Shown here: positions 17,802 to 64,000 of the stretch, one piece after another
Numbering within the stretch: the stretch's first letter is position 1
How the letters are laid out: each line of letters opens with the position of its first letter
DNA from: Dechloromonas sp. A34
GTDB taxonomy: Bacteria > Pseudomonadota > Gammaproteobacteria > Burkholderiales > Rhodocyclaceae
Length of the DNA: 64,000 nt
Assembly (NCBI RefSeq): GCF_026261605.1
Contig: NZ_CP102486.1
Coordinates: 2,914,001-2,978,000, forward strand
Direction of reading: 5' to 3'
Notes under the pieces: generated by a model
What the model saw: only the letters and a program-made list of their open reading frames with translations
Database searches by the model: none
Told to the model about the DNA's origin: nothing
Position numbers and translations under genes: made by a program

Positions 17802-17885
17802 TAACCGAGTGCCAGTCGTCGTCGGCGATATTTTTCCCGGGGATGGACGGGAAATTTACCGGAAATTCCGAAGACTTTCGCGCTA

Positions 17886-17928
17886 TGTGTGCTTGCCGAC
17901 ATACAAATCCGTCATCGGGAACTAAGCT
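17886..17928 (+). promoter_or_regulatory. Crp-type operator plus -10 for Crp-PAS-GGDEF gene
   Basis: TGTGTGCTTGCCGACATA (17886-17903) has one mismatch to the shared operator. TAAGCT (17923-17928) follows at the standard spacing. The predicted start at 17935 leaves a 58-nt leader. It implies that the fusion regulator is controlled by itself or by its paralogue. Confidence 0.7.
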
Positions 17929-17992: not shown

Positions 17993-20542
17993 ATGCCGTC
18001 GAATCCGCTGCAAAACCCGAAACAGAACCGCATACTGGCAGCCCTGACGCCTAATGATTACGCGCGCCTGCAGGACGATCTCGAACCCGTTACGCTGCAT
18101 CTCGGCCAGGTGCTATTCGAGTCGGGCGACAGCCCGACCTACGTCTATTTTCCGGCGACCTGCATCGTTTCGCTGATCTTCACCACCCGCAAGGGGGCGT
18201 CTGCCGAACTGGCGATCACCGGCAACGACGGTCTGGTCGGCATTCCGCTGGTGCTCGGTGGCGAAACCACGACCCATCGGGCGGTGATTCAGAGCGAGGG
18301 GACGGCCTACCGGCTGAAGATCGAGGTCATGCGCTGGGAACTCGACCAGGGTGGCGAACTGCAGCATCTCGCCCTGCGCTACGCCCAGGCCCTGATGACG
18401 CAGATGGCGCAGAGCGTGGTCTGCAATCGCCACCACGCCGTGGACCAGCAGTTGTGCCGCTGGTTGTTGCTCAGTCTCGACCGCCTGCCGGGCAACCAGC
18501 TGAACATGACGCAGGAACTGATCGGCAACATGCTCGGCGTCCGCCGTGAAGCGGTGACCGAAGCCGCCGGCAAACTGCAGGCGGCGGGTTTGATCCAATA
18601 CAGTCGTGGGCATATCACCATTCTCGATCGGCCGGGCCTCGAGTCCCGGGCCTGCGAATGCTACGCCGTGGTCAAGGCGGAATACGACCGGCTGTTTCAG
18701 TTCCCGGTCAATGAGCGCATCAAGAGCCGCTCGCGACCCAATCCGGAAACTTTCCGCAAGCGGGCCGAAGCGCGCTTCCTGCAGTCATCGCCAGAGGTGC
18801 CGAAGACGCCGTGGGATTACGCGCAGTTGGTGCATGAACTGCAGGTCCACCAGATCGAACTCGAAATGCACAACGAGGAGCTTCGTCATGCCTATGACGA
18901 GGCCGATGCCCTGCGTGACCGCTACGCCGACATCTACGATTTCGCCCCGGTTGGCTACTTCACACTCGACCGCCAGGGCGTCATCCTCGACATGAATCTT
19001 GCCGGTTCGATCCTGCTCGGCATCAAGGGTTCGCAGAAGGGCCGGCATCGTTTCGCCTCCCATGTCGTGGAGGACGACCTGCCGGTCTTCAACGGCTTCT
19101 TCGACAAGATACTGACGGCGACGCACAAGATGCAGTGCGAAGTCCAACTGGCGCCGACCACTCATCGTGGCGAGGCCAGCGTCAGGATCGAAGCCGTTCC
19201 CGATGAAAACGGCGACGAATGCCGCATGGTGGTGATGGACATTTCGGCCGCCAAGCAGGCCGAAAAGGCCTTGCAGGAGCGCGAGCAGTACCAGCGCGCC
19301 GTGCTCGATAATTTCCCCTTCAAGGTCTGGCTCAAGGACTCGCAATCACGTTTCCTGGCTGTCAACACGCCCTTCGCTACCACGTTCGGCAAGCCGTCGG
19401 CCGATGCCCTGATCGGCCAGTCCGATTTCGATATTTTCAGTCGGGATATCGCCGAGGCGCATCGGGCCGACGATCTGACCGTCCTCGAATCGGGCCAGCA
19501 GAAAACCGTGGTCGAGATGATCGAAGCCGACGGTCAGCGACGCTGGTTCGAGACCTACAAGTCGCCAGTGCATCTGGCGGGGCAGCCGATCGGCACCGTC
19601 GGTTTCGCGCGCGACATCACCGAACGTCACAATACCCAGCAGGCGCTGAAGAATTCGGAAAAGCGCTACCGCAGCTTCATCGAGAAGCTGCCACTCAGCG
19701 TCGCCATCCTTCAGGACGGCGTACTCAAATACCTGAATCCGAAAGGTCTGGAACTGATCGGCTACGCGCCCGACGAGTGCATCGGCAAACCCTTCCTGTC
19801 GCTGATCTTTGACGCCGATCGCCAATGGGCGATCGAGGCCCACAAGTCGCATTCGCTCGGCCAACTGCAAGCGTCAAGCTCCGAGATCCGCCTGCTGACC
19901 AAGTCGGGCCAGGTGATTGACTGCCTGATGCACGTCAATAGCGTCGAATGGGAAGGGCACATCGCCGTCCTGGCAACCCTCGAGGATGTCACCGCCACCA
20001 AGGCGATGGATCAGGAGCTGCGTCGTCTGGCCAGTATCGACACGCTGACCGAACTGGCCACCCGGACGCACTTCTACAGTCATATGGAACAGGCGCTTTC
20101 CCGGCTCAAGCGTGGTATCGATCCGGAAGTCGCCGTGCTGGTGCTCGAACTCGATGATTTTCCGGCGATCAGCGACGCCCTCGGTCATCTGGCCAGCGAT
20201 GCCGTCCTGCACCTGTTCTCGGCACTGTTGCGCGAAGAATTGCGCAAGATCGATTTTGCCGCCCGGATCGATGGCGAGCGCTTCGCCGTTTTGCTGCCGA
20301 GCAGCCTGGCGGCGGCTCAGGTATTCGCCGAACGCTTGCGGGCGAAACTGGCCGGGATGGCAGTTACTGTCGGCAAGCGGCAGGTCACGATCACCGCCAG
20401 TATGGGGATCGCCATGTTGACTGCCGCCGATGGCTCGGCCGGTCAGGCGTTCCGGACGGCCGAATCGGGCGTCGCCAGAGCCCAAGGCGCCGGCGGCGAT
20501 CGGGTGGTGGTTGCCGCCGCCGAGTTCGAAAGCGCTCATTGA
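17993..20542 (+). CDS. Crp/Fnr-type regulator fused to PAS domains and degenerate GGDEF
   Basis: 849 aa. The N-terminal cyclic-nucleotide-binding-type beta roll (about 15-130; NDGLVGIPLVLGG) is followed by a Crp winged HTH (about 145-215; LNMTQELIGNMLGVRREA), then a coiled coil, a PAS (about 315-425), a second PAS (about 435-545), a third PAS (about 555-670) and a GGDEF fold (about 680-845). The GGDEF signature is DGERF, so cyclase activity is doubtful. A DNA-binding domain in front of PAS/GGDEF in one chain is unusual. The HTH is nearly identical to that of the partial gene at 62134. No N-terminal FNR-like cysteine cluster is visible. It is inferred to be a regulator of the 18-bp palindrome regulon. 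Confidence 0.88.
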   Translation: MPSNPLQNPKQNRILAALTPNDYARLQDDLEPVTLHLGQVLFESGDSPTYVYFPATCIVSLIFTTRKGASAELAITGNDGLVGIPLVLGGETTTHRAVIQSEGTAYRLKIEVMRWELDQGGELQHLALRYAQALMTQMAQSVVCNRHHAVDQQLCRWLLLSLDRLPGNQLNMTQELIGNMLGVRREAVTEAAGKLQAAGLIQYSRGHITILDRPGLESRACECYAVVKAEYDRLFQFPVNERIKSRSRPNPETFRKRAEARFLQSSPEVPKTPWDYAQLVHELQVHQIELEMHNEELRHAYDEADALRDRYADIYDFAPVGYFTLDRQGVILDMNLAGSILLGIKGSQKGRHRFASHVVEDDLPVFNGFFDKILTATHKMQCEVQLAPTTHRGEASVRIEAVPDENGDECRMVVMDISAAKQAEKALQEREQYQRAVLDNFPFKVWLKDSQSRFLAVNTPFATTFGKPSADALIGQSDFDIFSRDIAEAHRADDLTVLESGQQKTVVEMIEADGQRRWFETYKSPVHLAGQPIGTVGFARDITERHNTQQALKNSEKRYRSFIEKLPLSVAILQDGVLKYLNPKGLELIGYAPDECIGKPFLSLIFDADRQWAIEAHKSHSLGQLQASSSEIRLLTKSGQVIDCLMHVNSVEWEGHIAVLATLEDVTATKAMDQELRRLASIDTLTELATRTHFYSHMEQALSRLKRGIDPEVAVLVLELDDFPAISDALGHLASDAVLHLFSALLREELRKIDFAARIDGERFAVLLPSSLAAAQVFAERLRAKLAGMAVTVGKRQVTITASMGIAMLTAADGSAGQAFRTAESGVARAQGAGGDRVVVAAAEFESAH

Positions 20543-20577: not shown

Positions 20578-20589
20578 ATCCATGTCTTG

Positions 20590-20632
20590 TGTGCGCTAGC
20601 GCACGGTGGCGCCTGGCGAAGCAGAAGACAAT
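20590..20632 (+). promoter_or_regulatory. Crp-type operator plus -10 for small RNA copy 1
   Basis: TGTGCGCTAGCGCACGGT (20590-20607) contains a perfect 14-bp palindrome (GTGCGCTAGCGCAC). GACAAT (20627-20632) lies at the standard spacing, predicting a start at 20639, exactly the first base of the small-RNA hairpin. The next protein gene begins 239 bp away, behind a terminator. Confidence 0.75.
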
Positions 20633-20638
20633 GACTTC

Positions 20639-20719
20639 AGGTGTTCGTGCCCCACCCCCAATTTCCGAACACCTTTTGTACTTTGCCCGGCACGGTCCGC
20701 CCGTTCCGGGCTTCTTTTT
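20639..20719 (+). ncRNA. Small RNA with C-rich hairpin loop, copy 1
   Basis: The predicted transcript is about 81 nt. The 5' hairpin has a 9-bp stem, AGGTGTTCG (20639-20647) with CGAACACCT (20666-20674), and a loop containing GCCCCACCCCC. After a short U-rich linker comes a terminator stem, GCCCGGCACGG with CCGTTCCGGGC (20685-20711), and a U-tract. The same structure, loop core and terminator recur on the minus strand at 40650-40728 behind an equivalent promoter. No convincing protein is encoded. The exposed C-run suggests pairing to G-rich ribosome binding sites, which is inference. I do not recognise the family. Confidence 0.8.
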
Positions 20720-20846
20720 GCCGGCACCGGCGCCCGGCTTGCCCATAAGTTCGACAGCACACATACACGGTGCGCGCGATGGCAGACAATCCCCCGAAGA
20801 CCGTCAGTGCCCAGGCCGGGAACGACGCGATCCGGGGAAACGAAAA

Positions 20847-22577: not shown

Positions 22578-22610
22578 GACTGGCGGGGGCTGAATATATA
22601 GGCCGATCTA

Positions 22611-22653
22611 TGTGCGCCAGCGGACAGATGGCAGCCCAACTGTCCCGTAGCCT
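22611..22653 (+). promoter_or_regulatory. Crp-type operator plus -10, perfect consensus
   Basis: TGTGCGCCAGCGGACAGA (22611-22628) matches every consensus position. TAGCCT (22648-22653) lies at the exact class II spacing. The predicted start at 22660 leaves a 140-nt leader before the gene at 22800. Confidence 0.8.
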
Positions 22654-22799: not shown

Positions 22800-23411
22800 A
22801 TGAAAAAACTCAACATCAATGCGATCGCCCTGGCGATCACCCTGGCATTCAGCGCCGGTGCCATGGCTGAAGGCATGTCCAAAGGCGATTACAAGGGCCA
22901 CAAGGACAAGATTTCGGCGGAGTACAAGTCGGCCAAGGCCGCCTGCGGTTCGCTGGCCGGCAATGCCAGCGACGTCTGCGTCGCCGAAGCCAAGGGCAAG
23001 GAAAAGGTTGCCCTGGCCGATCTCGAAGCCAGCTACAAGCCGACCCAGAAAACCCGTTACGACGCCCGCGTCGCCAAGGCTGACGCCGACTACGGCGTGG
23101 CCAAGGAAAAGTGCGACGACCTGGCCGGCAATGCCAAGGACGTTTGCGTGAAGGAGGCGAAGGCCGCCGAAACCACCGCCAAGGCCGATGCCAAGGCACA
23201 GATGAAGACGGCAGCAGCCAACACGACGGCCAATGAAAAATCGGCCGACGCGCGCAACGATGCCAACAAGAAGGCCGTCGATGCCAACAAGGATGCCAAG
23301 GCCGACAAGGTTGATGCCCAGAAGGATGTTGCCAAGGAAAAGTGCGATGCCTACTCCGGTGCCGCCAAGGACAGCTGTCTGGACAAGATGAAAGTGAATT
23401 ACACCAAGTAG
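22800..23411 (+). CDS. Exported protein with three cysteine-pair repeats
   Basis: 203 aa with a clear signal peptide ending AGAMAEG. Three related units each carry a cysteine pair: CGSLAGNASDVCV near residue 49, CDDLAGNAKDVCV near 103, CDAYSGAAKDSC near 183. Between the last two lies an Ala/Lys/Asp-rich helical stretch with ANKKAVDANKDAKADK-type repeats. It is probably periplasmic, with disulphide-closed helical hairpins. No function is known. It leads a series of small envelope genes in the same direction. Confidence 0.8.
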   Translation: MKKLNINAIALAITLAFSAGAMAEGMSKGDYKGHKDKISAEYKSAKAACGSLAGNASDVCVAEAKGKEKVALADLEASYKPTQKTRYDARVAKADADYGVAKEKCDDLAGNAKDVCVKEAKAAETTAKADAKAQMKTAAANTTANEKSADARNDANKKAVDANKDAKADKVDAQKDVAKEKCDAYSGAAKDSCLDKMKVNYTK

Positions 23412-39243: not shown

Positions 39244-40632
39244 ATGCTCGCGCGCGGTTTCAGGTTTCTTGCGGTGGCGGCAGCCGTCCTGTTCGTGACG
39301 GCAGGGTGCGCCGCGCTCCCCGATAGCGATGCCCTGATCGATCAGCATTCCGGGCGGGCCGCCCAATTCGAGAATGCCGGCGGCCCGCTCTCGGCGCAGA
39401 AAGGCGCGGCCATCGTGGCCGACCTTAAACGCAGATCCGGCGACATCGATATTCTCGACAAGCAGATTGCGCTGGAACAGGCCATTGTCGGCAGCCCGCT
39501 GATCACCGGCAACAAGGTGCTCCTCCTGCAGGACGGTACGGCCACCTATGCGGCGATGTTTGCGGCAATCCGCGCCGCCCGCGACCATATCAATGTCGAA
39601 ACCTACATCATCGAGGACGACGAAATCGGGCGCCAGTTCGCCGATCTGTTGCTGCTTCAGCAGCAGCGCGGCATTCAGGTCAATCTGATCTATGACAGCG
39701 TCGGCTGCATCAATACGCCCAAGGCCTTCTTCGAACGCCTGCAACAGGGCGGCATCAATGTCCTCGAATTCAACCCGATCAACCCGCTGGCGGCCGGCAA
39801 GCCGTGGTTGCTCAATCATCGCGACCACCGAAAACTGCTGGTGGTCGACGGGCGCATCGCCTTTCTGGGCGGGATCAATATCAGCAGCGTCTATTCCTCG
39901 GGGTCGGGTACCCGGCGGCACATGGAAGCTGAACAAAAGAAAAGTGCCTGGCGCGATACCGACCTGCAGGTCGAAGGTCCCGTGGTGGGCGAATTGCAGA
40001 AACTGTTCATCGAGACCTGGGCCAAGCAGCAGGGCAAGCCGCTGGCCGCCCGCAAGTATTTCCCCGAATTGCGGAGTCAGGGCAAGGATATCGTGCGCGC
40101 CATCGGCAGTTCGCCCGACGAGCCCTACAGCCTGATCTACGTGACGCTGATGTCGGCCATCGGCAATGCTGAACGCCAGATCCAGCTGACCAATGCCTAC
40201 TTCGTTCCCGACGCCCAGTTGCTCAAGGCGCTGACCGATGCCGCCGGACGGGGCGTCGAGGTGACATTGATACTGCCCAGCCATACCGACTCGGAAATCG
40301 TATTTCAGGCCGGGCGCGCGCACTATTCCCCGCTGCTCAAGGCCGGCGTCAGGATCTATGAGCGGCGCGGTGCGCTGCTTCACTCGAAGACCGCGCTGAT
40401 CGACGGCGTCTGGTCCTGCGTCGGCTCGACCAACCTCGACTGGCGCAGTTTTCTCGACAACGACGAGGTCAATGCGGTCGTGCTCGGGCGCGATTTCGCC
40501 GGGCAGATGACGGCGATGATCAACCGCGACCTCACAGCGTCGGAGGCGATCACTCTGGAGAAGTGGGAGCAGCGCTCGTTGCTGCTGCGCATCAAGGAGT
40601 GGGGCGCCAGCCTGTTGCAGCGACTGCTTTAG
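39244..40632 (+). CDS. Cardiolipin synthase / phospholipase D family lipoprotein
   Basis: 462 aa with an N-terminal lipobox (LFVTAGC), unusual for a Cls enzyme, which is normally membrane-spanning. Two HKD motifs are intact: HRKLLVVDGRIAFLGG near residue 198 and HSKTALIDGVWSCVGSTN near 380, so it should form the phospholipase D-type active site. It synthesises cardiolipin from two phosphatidylglycerol or PG plus PE. A small hairpin (GCCTGCC/GGCAGGC, 39219-39238) lies just before the start. Confidence 0.88.
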   Translation: MLARGFRFLAVAAAVLFVTAGCAALPDSDALIDQHSGRAAQFENAGGPLSAQKGAAIVADLKRRSGDIDILDKQIALEQAIVGSPLITGNKVLLLQDGTATYAAMFAAIRAARDHINVETYIIEDDEIGRQFADLLLLQQQRGIQVNLIYDSVGCINTPKAFFERLQQGGINVLEFNPINPLAAGKPWLLNHRDHRKLLVVDGRIAFLGGINISSVYSSGSGTRRHMEAEQKKSAWRDTDLQVEGPVVGELQKLFIETWAKQQGKPLAARKYFPELRSQGKDIVRAIGSSPDEPYSLIYVTLMSAIGNAERQIQLTNAYFVPDAQLLKALTDAAGRGVEVTLILPSHTDSEIVFQAGRAHYSPLLKAGVRIYERRGALLHSKTALIDGVWSCVGSTNLDWRSFLDNDEVNAVVLGRDFAGQMTAMINRDLTASEAITLEKWEQRSLLLRIKEWGASLLQRLL

Positions 40633-40649: not shown

Positions 40650-40728
40650 AAAAAAATGCCCGGTACGGGCTGGCCGTGCCGGGCAAAATACAGAAGGTGT
40701 TCGAAAAGGGGGTGGGGCGCGAACACCT
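40650..40728 (-). ncRNA. Small RNA with C-rich hairpin loop, copy 2
   Basis: On the minus strand the 5' hairpin has a 9-bp stem (40728-40720 with 40703-40695) around a loop containing GCCCCACCCCC. The terminator stem GCCCGGCACGG/CCGTACCGGGC (40684-40658) ends in U7 (40656-40650). Length is about 79 nt. The stem, loop core and terminator match copy 1 at 20639 nearly base for base, with differences mostly in loops and linkers. The predicted start, 40728, is the first stem base. It lies 3' to the cls gene on the opposite strand, and its run-through would be antisense to cls. Confidence 0.82.
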
Positions 40729-40734
40729 GACGCC

Positions 40735-40779
40735 ATGTTCTACTTATTCGTCATTAAGTTCTGTGCGCTACCGTACATA
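40735..40779 (-). promoter_or_regulatory. Crp-type operator plus -10 for small RNA copy 2
   Basis: Plus-strand TGTGCGCTACCGTACATA (40762-40779) is a perfect consensus match, and the minus reading TGTACGGTAGCGCACAGA is near-perfect. In the minus direction GAACAT (40740-40735) falls at exactly the class II spacing. No suitable -10 exists at the same distance on the plus strand. Confidence 0.78.
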
Positions 40780-40877
40780 AGAGAAAACTTGTGCACCGGG
40801 GTCTGATCTCGCGACGGGATGGCGATCCGCTCCGACATGGCAGGGTTTTCGCCGCCGCCGTCGGCCTGGCCTGCTTG

Positions 40878-40920
40878 GGTGCGGCGGCGCACAGACCGGC
40901 CGGAAGGTGCCGACTAGCCT
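40878..40920 (+). promoter_or_regulatory. Crp-type operator plus -10 for general stress protein gene
   Basis: GGTGCGGCGGCGCACAGA (40878-40895) mismatches only at position 1. TAGCCT (40915-40920), preceded by C, lies at the exact spacing. The predicted start is 40927, a 38-nt leader. Confidence 0.75.
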
Positions 40921-40964: not shown

Positions 40965-41492
40965 ATGGATCAATATCGCCATCACGTATCGGGCTTTTTT
41001 GCCCACCGCGAAGAAGCCGAAGGCGCGCTTTCCCGACTCGTCGAGCAGGGCCTGCCACGCAGTCAGTTGCAACTTTTCGCTGCCGACTCGGGGCCGGCCG
41101 TTACCAAGCCGCAGGGCGAGAGCAACGAGGTGCTGAACAACGTTCTGGTCGACGGCGCCATCGGTACGGCGGTCGGTACCGGCATTGGCGCCCTGGCGCA
41201 ACTGGCGCTGGTTGCCAGCAGTGCCACCTTGTTCGTCGCCAGCCCGCTGGTTGCGCCGCTGGTCATGCTCGGCTGGGGCGCCAGTCTCGGTGCCCTGGTT
41301 GGCGCTGCCGCCGGAGCCAATACCGACGTCAAACCCAAGGAAGGCTGGCTTTCGGACCTGGTCCAGGATGCCATCGCCAACGGCCAGGTGGTTCTGGTCG
41401 TGCAGACCCGGACCGAGCAGGAGACGGCAACCGCCCGCGAGGTGATCGGCGCGGCAGTCGGCGAGTTCAAAGACGTTGCCAGCCTTACCTGA
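40965..41492 (+). CDS. General stress protein 17M-like membrane protein
   Basis: 175 aa from ATG 40965, behind AAGGAGAG. The N-terminus HHVSGFFAHREEAEGALSRL resembles the general-stress-protein-17M-like domain (a short flavinator-type fold). A glycine-rich hydrophobic pair of segments follows (GTAVGTGIGALAQLALVAS, ASPLVAPLVMLGWGASLGA). The C-terminal part has VVLVVQTRTEQETATAREVI. It is probably an inner-membrane stress protein of unknown function. Confidence 0.78.
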   Translation: MDQYRHHVSGFFAHREEAEGALSRLVEQGLPRSQLQLFAADSGPAVTKPQGESNEVLNNVLVDGAIGTAVGTGIGALAQLALVASSATLFVASPLVAPLVMLGWGASLGALVGAAAGANTDVKPKEGWLSDLVQDAIANGQVVLVVQTRTEQETATAREVIGAAVGEFKDVASLT

Positions 41493-61946: not shown

Positions 61947-62013
61947 TAGCGATTGGCAGCTGCTGCTTGACATGCGGAGTCAATTGGACGTGCTTTTTGT
62001 GATTGTCACGATA

Positions 62014-62056
62014 TGTGCGGAAACGAACATACCAACTGCGAATTTCTGACTATAGT
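62014..62056 (+). promoter_or_regulatory. Crp-type operator plus -10 for Crp-PAS gene, perfect consensus
   Basis: TGTGCGGAAACGAACATA (62014-62031) matches every consensus position. TATAGT (62051-62056), preceded by C, lies at the exact spacing. The predicted start is 62063, a 70-nt leader. It suggests autoregulation. Confidence 0.78.
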
Positions 62057-62133: not shown

Positions 62134-64000
62134 ATGGTTTTAATTGACAGGCCAAAAGAGAACTTAATTCTGGCGGCGCTCGCCGGCGCTCAGTATGAGC
62201 GGCTGGTCGACAATCTCGAATTCATCCAGCTCGAACCGGGGCAGGTTCTCTACGACGCGGGAGATCGTCCGGGATATCTCTATTTCCCGACGACTTCGAT
62301 TGTTTCGCTGGTGTTCACCACGATCAACGGTTCGACGGCAGAGTTGGCGATTGCCGGCAATGACGGGCTGGTTGGCGTTCCGATGGTTCTCGGCGGGCAA
62401 ACCACGACCCATCGCGCCGTCGTGCAATGTGGCGGTCATACCTATCGGCTGAGGGCCGACCTGGCCCGCTGGGAGCTGGATCAGCCGGGCGGATTGCAGC
62501 AACTATCATTGCGCTACACCCAGGCCTTGATGACCCAGATGGCCCAGAGTGTCGTCTGCAATCGGCACCATTCGATCAAGCAGCAGCTATGCCGCTGGCT
62601 CTTGCTAAGCCTGGACCGTCTGCCGGGCAACCAGCTCAACATGACGCAGGAACTGATCGCCGGCATGCTCGGCGTGCGGCGCGAGGCGGTAACCGAGGCC
62701 GCAGGGAAGCTGCAGGCCGCCGGCCTGATTCAATACAGCCGGGGCCGGATCACGGTTATCGACCGGGCCGGTATCGAGGCGCAAGTCTGTGAGTGTTACG
62801 CCGTGGTGAAGGGCGAACTGGATCGCCTGTCTCGACTGGCACCGGATGAGGAGGCCAGTGACCGGGTCCGGCCGAACCTGGCGCCCCTGCGTCAGCGGGC
62901 CGAGTTGCAGCTCCAGGAAACCGGGCCGCCGGAGTTGGGCCAGGAGACTGATGCCGTACGGCTGTTGCATGAGCTCCAGGTCCATCAGATCGAACTTGAA
63001 ATCCAGCTTGAAGAACTGCGCAGCATCAGTGGCGAGGCTTGTGCACTGCGCGACCGCTACGCCGACATCTATGATTTCGCGCCGGTCAGCTATTTCACGC
63101 TGAGTGCTCAAGGCACCATTCTCGATCTCAATCTTGCCGCCGCCATCCTGCTCGGCATCAAGCGCTCAGAGCAACGCAAGCATCGCTTCGCGGCCTTTGT
63201 CGCAACGTCATGCCTGAGCGAATTCAACTCTTTTCTCACCGGCGTTCTGAGCGGCCGCAGCAAGAAGGTATGCGAAATTACGCTGCTGCCAACCCGGCAG
63301 CGTCCGCAGGCGAGCATCAGAATCGAGGCCGTCTCGGACGAGAACGGTCAGGAGTGCCGGATGGTGGCGATCGATGTCTCCGCGGAAAGGCAAGCCGAAA
63401 AGCTGCTGGCGGATCGGGAGCACTACCTGCGCACCTTGCTCGACAACTTCCCGTTCATGGCCTGGCTGAAAGACGACCAGGGGCATTTCCTGGCTGCTAA
63501 TCGGGCTTTTTCTTCCGCTGGGCTGGAGGAGGACGAGTGGGCTGATGATCAAGCCGTGCTGGCCGGCGGTTCCAGCCAGCCGGTGGAGTCGATGATCGAA
63601 ACGGACGGACTGCGTCGGTGGTTCGAGATATATCAGGCGCCGGTCCAGTCGGGGGACTTGTTGGGGACGGTTGGTTTTTCGCGGGACATCACCGAGCGCA
63701 AGGAGCTCGAGCTGGCATTACAGGATAGCAATGCCTTGAAGCGCTCGATCCTGAATTCCGTGCCGACGGCGATTGCCGTCGTCGATGGCGATGGCGTGAT
63801 TCTCGTGGTCAACGACCATTGGCGCGAATTTTCACGGGAAAACGGTATTGATCCGGGTAGTGCTGCGCCGCACACCGATGTCGGCGCCAATTACCTCGCC
63901 GTCTGCCAGGCCGGCATCGATGCCATGTCTCCTGGCGCACTGGCTGCCTACGACGGCATTCAGGCCGTCCTCAACGGAAAGTTGCCGAGCTTTCGCATGG
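62134..64000 (+). CDS. Crp/Fnr-type regulator fused to PAS domains, partial
   Basis: 622 codons from ATG 62134 (RBS AGGGGAGCAC), open at the right edge. The N-terminal beta roll (NDGLVGVPMVLGGQTTTH) and HTH (LNMTQELIAGMLGVRREAVT) are near-identical to the gene at 17993, then a coiled coil ([20 protein letters not shown]), PAS (about 320-425), PAS (about 435-525) and the start of a third. What follows (GGDEF, kinase or other) is outside the window. With identical recognition residues, the two proteins should bind the same DNA palindrome but sense through different PAS domains. Confidence 0.87.
   Translation, partial: MVLIDRPKENLILAALAGAQYERLVDNLEFIQLEPGQVLYDAGDRPGYLYFPTTSIVSLVFTTINGSTAELAIAGNDGLVGVPMVLGGQTTTHRAVVQCGGHTYRLRADLARWELDQPGGLQQLSLRYTQALMTQMAQSVVCNRHHSIKQQLCRWLLLSLDRLPGNQLNMTQELIAGMLGVRREAVTEAAGKLQAAGLIQYSRGRITVIDRAGIEAQVCECYAVVKGELDRLSRLAPDEEASDRVRPNLAPLRQRAELQLQETGPPELGQETDAVRLLHELQVHQIELEIQLEELRSISGEACALRDRYADIYDFAPVSYFTLSAQGTILDLNLAAAILLGIKRSEQRKHRFAAFVATSCLSEFNSFLTGVLSGRSKKVCEITLLPTRQRPQASIRIEAVSDENGQECRMVAIDVSAERQAEKLLADREHYLRTLLDNFPFMAWLKDDQGHFLAANRAFSSAGLEEDEWADDQAVLAGGSSQPVESMIETDGLRRWFEIYQAPVQSGDLLGTVGFSRDITERKELELALQDSNALKRSILNSVPTAIAVVDGDGVILVVNDHWREFSRENGIDPGSAAPHTDVGANYLAVCQAGIDAMSPGALAAYDGIQAVLNGKLPSFRM

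Follow-up and report, generated by a model that had tools for sequence, protein, structure and literature searches.

A duplicated small RNA gene with a putative Crp-type operator in Dechloromonas sp. A34, and its homologues in the same order

A 64,000-nt stretch of the Dechloromonas sp. A34 genome (here called the window) carries two copies, about 20 kb apart and on opposite strands, of an RNA gene whose reality and duplication are well supported. Our preferred reading of copy 2, to which we give a probability of roughly 0.6, is that it is an sRNA gene of about 80 nt with a promoter dependent on a Crp-type activator, and that the RNA would act in trans through pairing of its C-rich loop with the G-rich ribosome-binding sites of mRNAs. 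The RNA family is new and its kind ordinary; what stands out is its repeated linkage to a Crp-type regulator. The features of the two copies are as follows.

40650..40728 (−), sRNA copy 2: 9-bp stem, C-rich loop, linker, terminator hairpin and T7
40735..40740 (−), −10 element GAACAT of copy 2, positions −12 to −7
40760..40779 (−), Crp-type operator of copy 2, centred at about −41.5; matrix score 27.5, as a training site of the matrix
39244..40632 (+), cls, the convergent neighbour of copy 2, with a PLD-type phospholipase domain
20639..20720 (+), sRNA copy 1, found by blastn with the copy 2 region
20588..20607 (+), Crp-type operator of copy 1; matrix score 23.7, also as a training site

The positions given in the original prediction proved correct, with the first stem base at 40728 on the minus strand, the T-run at 40656–40650 and the cls stop codon at 40630–40632. 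As the predicted 3′ end of the RNA is 17 nt from that stop codon, the RNA does not overlap cls. A stem of 9 bp (AGGTGTTCG/CGAACACCT) encloses the C-rich loop and is followed by a short linker, a G+C-rich terminator hairpin and 7 T. The hairpin, loop and terminator had been said to occur twice, and comparison of 40790–40640 (−) with the window using blastn did return 20585–20726 (+), with 77% over 142 nt including the promoter (E 9e-27). Copy 1 and its promoter (20588–20720, plus strand) have the same layout. The 9-bp stem is identical in the two copies, and the differences are confined to the first loop, the linker, the loop or bulge of the terminator and the tail, much as had been described. 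When a 151-nt query was searched against the whole 4.76 Mb genome, the only two good matches were the window copies, the next having an E value of 0.6. Judged from sequence alone, the gene is intergenic and has its own promoter and an intrinsic terminator, as would be expected of a trans-acting base-pairing sRNA.

A blastn search of 60 relatives identified four further true homologues, some with altered stems that still pair. The first model was built from six sequences, and model searches covered 76 genomes of the genus (twice) and 300 and 399 genomes of the order. In total, 22 loci in 19 genomes from seven families of the order were accepted, 13 of them in 11 genomes of the genus and nine (L058, L059, L064, L256, L267, L257, L258, L259 and L262) in eight genomes of six other families. 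Two copies each were found in G000 (the A34 genome), G066 and G394. L064 (E 0.004 in the 300-genome search) entered model R2 because of its operator, and L262, which the model had mis-registered, was placed via its operator. Model rows were dropped in both genus searches (7/19 in the first and 4/17 in the second) and in both searches of the order (5/11 with 300 genomes and 9/22 with 399). The distribution is a lower bound, because the 399-genome and second genus searches scored only 11 and 62 candidates per genome, respectively. A pattern scan of the genome contigs gave at least 117 matching stretches. Similar double-hairpin RNAs with C-rich loops and without the operator were seen in L260 (1501–1573, +) and L263 (1501–1579, −), from two genomes of one genus (G446 and G165), and may be a relative with another promoter. 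No description of the sRNA or its regulator was found in the open literature searched.

Promoter, operator and candidate regulator

The operator of copy 2 is present where it was predicted, but the match called perfect is perfect only against itself; it agrees with the family consensus at 18/20 positions, and the copy 1 operator agrees with that consensus at 17/20. The further claim that a −10 element exists in the minus direction only was upheld, the mirrored place on the plus strand reading GGGTCT. The consensus of the operator is TATGTGCGCYAGCGCACAGA, with a half-site spacing that we take to be that of Crp/Fnr sites. In class II Crp promoters the site is centred near −41.5, and the layout seen here, a palindromic site near −41.5 together with a −10 element, is that of a Crp/Fnr class II promoter. 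The distance from the end of the operator to the first stem base is 31 nt in 20/21 registered loci and 32 nt in L059. Operator positions T-51, G-48, G-44, A-36, C-35 and G-33 and −10 positions A-11 and T-7 are invariant in all 21. Conservation of the operator among the accepted loci is partly the result of selection, because acceptance leaned on the operator as seen by eye. The fairer figures come from models that contain no promoter. With these, the operator accompanied 6/6 new strong matches in the first genus search (E≤4.2e-10) and 5/5 in the 399-genome search of the order (E≤1.7e-5), versus 0/7, 1/10 and 1/5 of the weaker rows in the first genus, 399-genome and second genus searches, respectively.

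The candidate for the activator is encoded next to copy 1, a link to the promoter that the original prediction had not drawn, and it has a paralogue at the end of the window.

17993..20542 (+), CRP-PAS-GGDEF protein of 849 aa, candidate regulator, ending 96 nt upstream of copy 1
17884..17903 (+), operator-like site before this gene, score 18.9
62146..64000 (+), second CRP-PAS-GGDEF gene, which runs past the end of the window
62012..62031 (+), operator-like site between a phasin gene and the second CRP-PAS-GGDEF gene, score 19.6

The domains of the 849-aa protein are cNMP_binding, HTH_Crp_2, PAS and GGDEF, and the Crp part of the second protein is 72% identical to that of the first. A GGDEF-type signature in the cyclase domain is absent from the first paralogue (17993–20542) and present in the second. 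The site at 17884–17903 makes autoregulation of the first gene possible. An orthologue of the CRP-PAS-GGDEF gene ends 61–88 nt before the sRNA in G027, G026, G014, G065 and G067. In other families, G247, G460, G228 and one copy in G394 have a gene for a Crp-domain protein no more than 0.3 kb from the sRNA, and in G217 the distance is 1.7 kb. The Crp-type regulator is fused to PAS-GGDEF in the genus and free-standing in the other families. A Crp-domain gene thus lies within 3 kb of 11/22 loci, in five families. The remaining 11/22 are copy 2, the loci of G005, G085, G002, G086, G045, G391 and G227, the other G394 copy and both G066 copies, one of which has a Crp gene at 5.1 kb; the G045 and G227 contigs span only 6–6.5 kb. 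Within the genus, a Crp homologue (E≤1e-30) was found in 10/11 genomes with an accepted sRNA versus 15/65 without (Fisher p 3e-5, with relatedness ignored), and 15/25 of the genomes with the Crp homologue had no accepted sRNA.

The linkage suggests that the Crp-like regulator encoded beside the sRNA is likely to switch it on. The CRP-PAS-GGDEF protein beside copy 1, or its paralogue, would bind the operator and activate the promoter, and the RNA would then be made from a start predicted at the first stem base. The nearest solved structures are distant from CRP-PAS-GGDEF (3dv8, E 2.8e-7), so the ligand and specificity of the regulator cannot be read off.

The strongest alternative is that the sRNA is real and regulated, but that it answers to another Crp/Fnr protein or acts in another way, for example as a protein sponge. 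We consider this unlikely, though far from negligible. The A34 genome encodes five Crp relatives at E≤1e-30, and G086, which carries both the sRNA and the operator, lacks a Crp homologue at that threshold, so another protein may bind the operator there. The association of the sRNA with Crp-domain genes in five families argues against a different Crp/Fnr protein. CsrA-type sponges carry GGA in a loop, and a sponge of that type is unlikely, as GGA was found in 0/21 loops.

Loop, targets and relation to known families

The loop contains a run of at least three C in 20/21 members and a pyrimidine run of at least six in 19/21; in L042 the pyrimidine run is ordinary relative to its flanks. Distant members have CUCCCUGA-type loops, which could pair with GGAGG-type ribosome-binding sites. 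Because the loop sequence varies between species, no single seed is conserved. The genome encodes Hfq (103 bits), the chaperone expected to accompany a trans-acting sRNA. When the genome was searched with the loop complement, 21 matches were found, two of them the sRNA genes themselves, versus 22 for a reversed control pattern, and there is hence no excess of potential targets. A mechanical open frame starts within 45 nt of 9/19 of the matches other than the sRNA genes. The best duplex within the window was no better than shuffled sequence (z −0.77), and the starts of 40 window genes gave a mean z of +0.41. In none of these target searches did the signal rise above the control, which is a point in favour of some other mode of action. 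Because they found no targets, the pairing step of our preferred reading is drawn from the chemistry of the loop and from published double-hairpin RNAs. Under that reading, trans pairing with Hfq's help, the C-rich loop would pair with G-rich ribosome-binding sites and translation of the targets would be blocked.

The published RNAs include RF02278, represented by the double-hairpin RNAs ncS03, ncS05, ncS27 and ncS62 of Burkholderia cenocepacia; as described in PMC5688073, their CU-rich region is predicted to lie over ribosome-binding sites and overexpression of ncS27 attenuates growth. Like them, the sRNA described here is short, has two hairpins and is present in several copies per genome, with a CU-rich single-stranded region predicted over ribosome-binding sites. 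The sequence differs from RF02278. The anti-hemB RNA (RF02837) is likewise betaproteobacterial, and its hairpin with a CUCCUCCCUGA loop resembles the distant homologues found here; it differs in its stems, linker, extra hairpin and separate locus. As described in PMC5688073, the Neisseria NmsR or sibling sRNAs are a homologous pair whose CU-rich stretches are complementary to ribosome-binding sites. That likeness is one of description, and the Neisseria pair is in tandem whereas the window copies are not. S17 of Bordetella pertussis, in the account of PMC11722255, is also betaproteobacterial, with a C/U-rich loop, a terminator and ribosome-binding sites as targets, but it arises by processing of a longer transcript and is related to RF02278, whereas the start of the sRNA here is predicted at the stem.

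The possibility that the sRNA is a divergent member of RF02278 (Betaproteobacteria toxic sRNA) or of RF02837 was considered because all are laid out as short hairpins that carry CU-rich loops, and for anti-hemB also because of the CUCCCUGA-type loops of the distant homologues. It is improbable. At the gathering score, Rfam found no match in the window, and the RF02278 model gave none at E≤5 on nine loci. The best score for anti-hemB was 20.8 bits on L059 (E 0.88), against a cut-off of 49.5. Matches to RF02278 lie elsewhere in the A34 genome, at 808806, 3935617 and 2875522, two of them over the cut-off, and as they are additional to the sRNA copies, CU-loop sRNAs of at least two families are present in the genome. 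Anti-hemB has a match at 788980 and two weaker ones, with none on the window copies. An operator within 100 nt upstream was found in 0/30 RF02278 loci and 0/20 RF02837 loci (30 fetched), where the best scores were 6.1 and 3.4, respectively, compared with 15.2 for the weakest left-out homologue of the sRNA. The family is one that Rfam 15 does not detect, and it has strong comparative support, with a predicted start site, an operator and a candidate regulator named.

Covariation of the structure

Covariation among homologues had been proposed as a check, and the structure passed it, with 18/20 base pairs changed on both sides across 21 aligned loci. Changes on both sides occupy 50 cells, and 0/500 shuffles, which ignore relatedness, reached the observed number of pairs or cells (averages 6.8 pairs and 15.6 cells). 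Pairing cells make up 94.9% of this alignment, which leaves out L262 and was fitted to the structure, and is thus biased towards it. When the partner was slid by 1–3 columns, only two to six two-sided pairs were found and pairing fell to 31–48%. An alignment of six sequences made with MAFFT without the structure gave seven covarying pairs, again reached in 0/500 shuffles. A conserved and covarying structure of this sort is expected of a trans-acting base-pairing sRNA. With the promoter and terminator conserved alongside it, the conclusion first offered, that this is a real, duplicated regulatory RNA, is still the best reading.

The covariation also bears on whether the element is only the terminator of a neighbouring gene with a chance hairpin in front of it. 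Copy 2 comes directly after the convergent cls gene, and in the first genus search the model matches that lacked an operator were terminators. However, the T-run is on the minus strand alone, stem 1 covaries at 9/9 pairs and the promoter is kept at a fixed distance, making this explanation very improbable. A short coding sequence is hardly credible, since even though neither copy has a stop codon in any frame within the RNA, both lack an ATG start, homologue lengths differ by increments other than multiples of three and the stems covary.

Genes and operator-like sites around the copies

Trained on 20 loci, the two window copies among them, the operator matrix found 19 sites in the window, whereas 40 dinucleotide shuffles averaged 0.275, and 17/19 were not training sites. 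By position and domain content, sites precede the genes for CRP-PAS-GGDEF, phospholipase A1, Ysc84, a globin-like protein, BON, DUF6600 and LTXXQ proteins, among others. Further sites precede the genes for a 175-aa protein (40965), FMN reductase, CHRD, PRC-barrel and crystallin-domain proteins and phasin, as well as the second CRP-PAS-GGDEF gene. Across the whole genome there are 19 distinct consensus sites at ≤3 mismatches (control 0), eight in the window and three more within 15 kb past its end. The region 17884–62031 is putatively an island of a Crp-type stress regulon that runs past the end of the window, and both sRNAs appear to sit in this putative local regulon. The sRNA would then supply the RNA arm of a local regulon for envelope and storage stress.

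A broader proposal, which we hold tentatively and at somewhat less than even odds, is that of a betaproteobacterial cassette that unites a Crp-type one-component regulator with a C-rich-loop sRNA of its own, the two travelling together. The regulator would activate a regulon for envelope and storage stress, and the RNA would shut off mRNAs with G-rich ribosome-binding sites. With a predicted start site, an operator and a candidate regulator named for the sRNA, little-studied stress genes of environmental betaproteobacteria can be tested as a single regulon that includes an RNA arm.

One of the sites lies between copy 2 and the gene divergent from it.

40876..40895 (+), operator-like site before the gene for a 175-aa protein at 40965, score 16.2

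The 175-aa protein (40965–41492) has a weak glycine-zipper match, under the Pfam cut-off. Relatives of its gene were also seen near the sRNA in L185, L187, L190 and L191. Since L187 and L190 show the same divergent arrangement, there is conservation of the copy 2 site as well. The best operator in the window (22609–22628, score 30.6) is 181 bp upstream of a gene for a 203-aa protein (22800–23411) with no Pfam domain.
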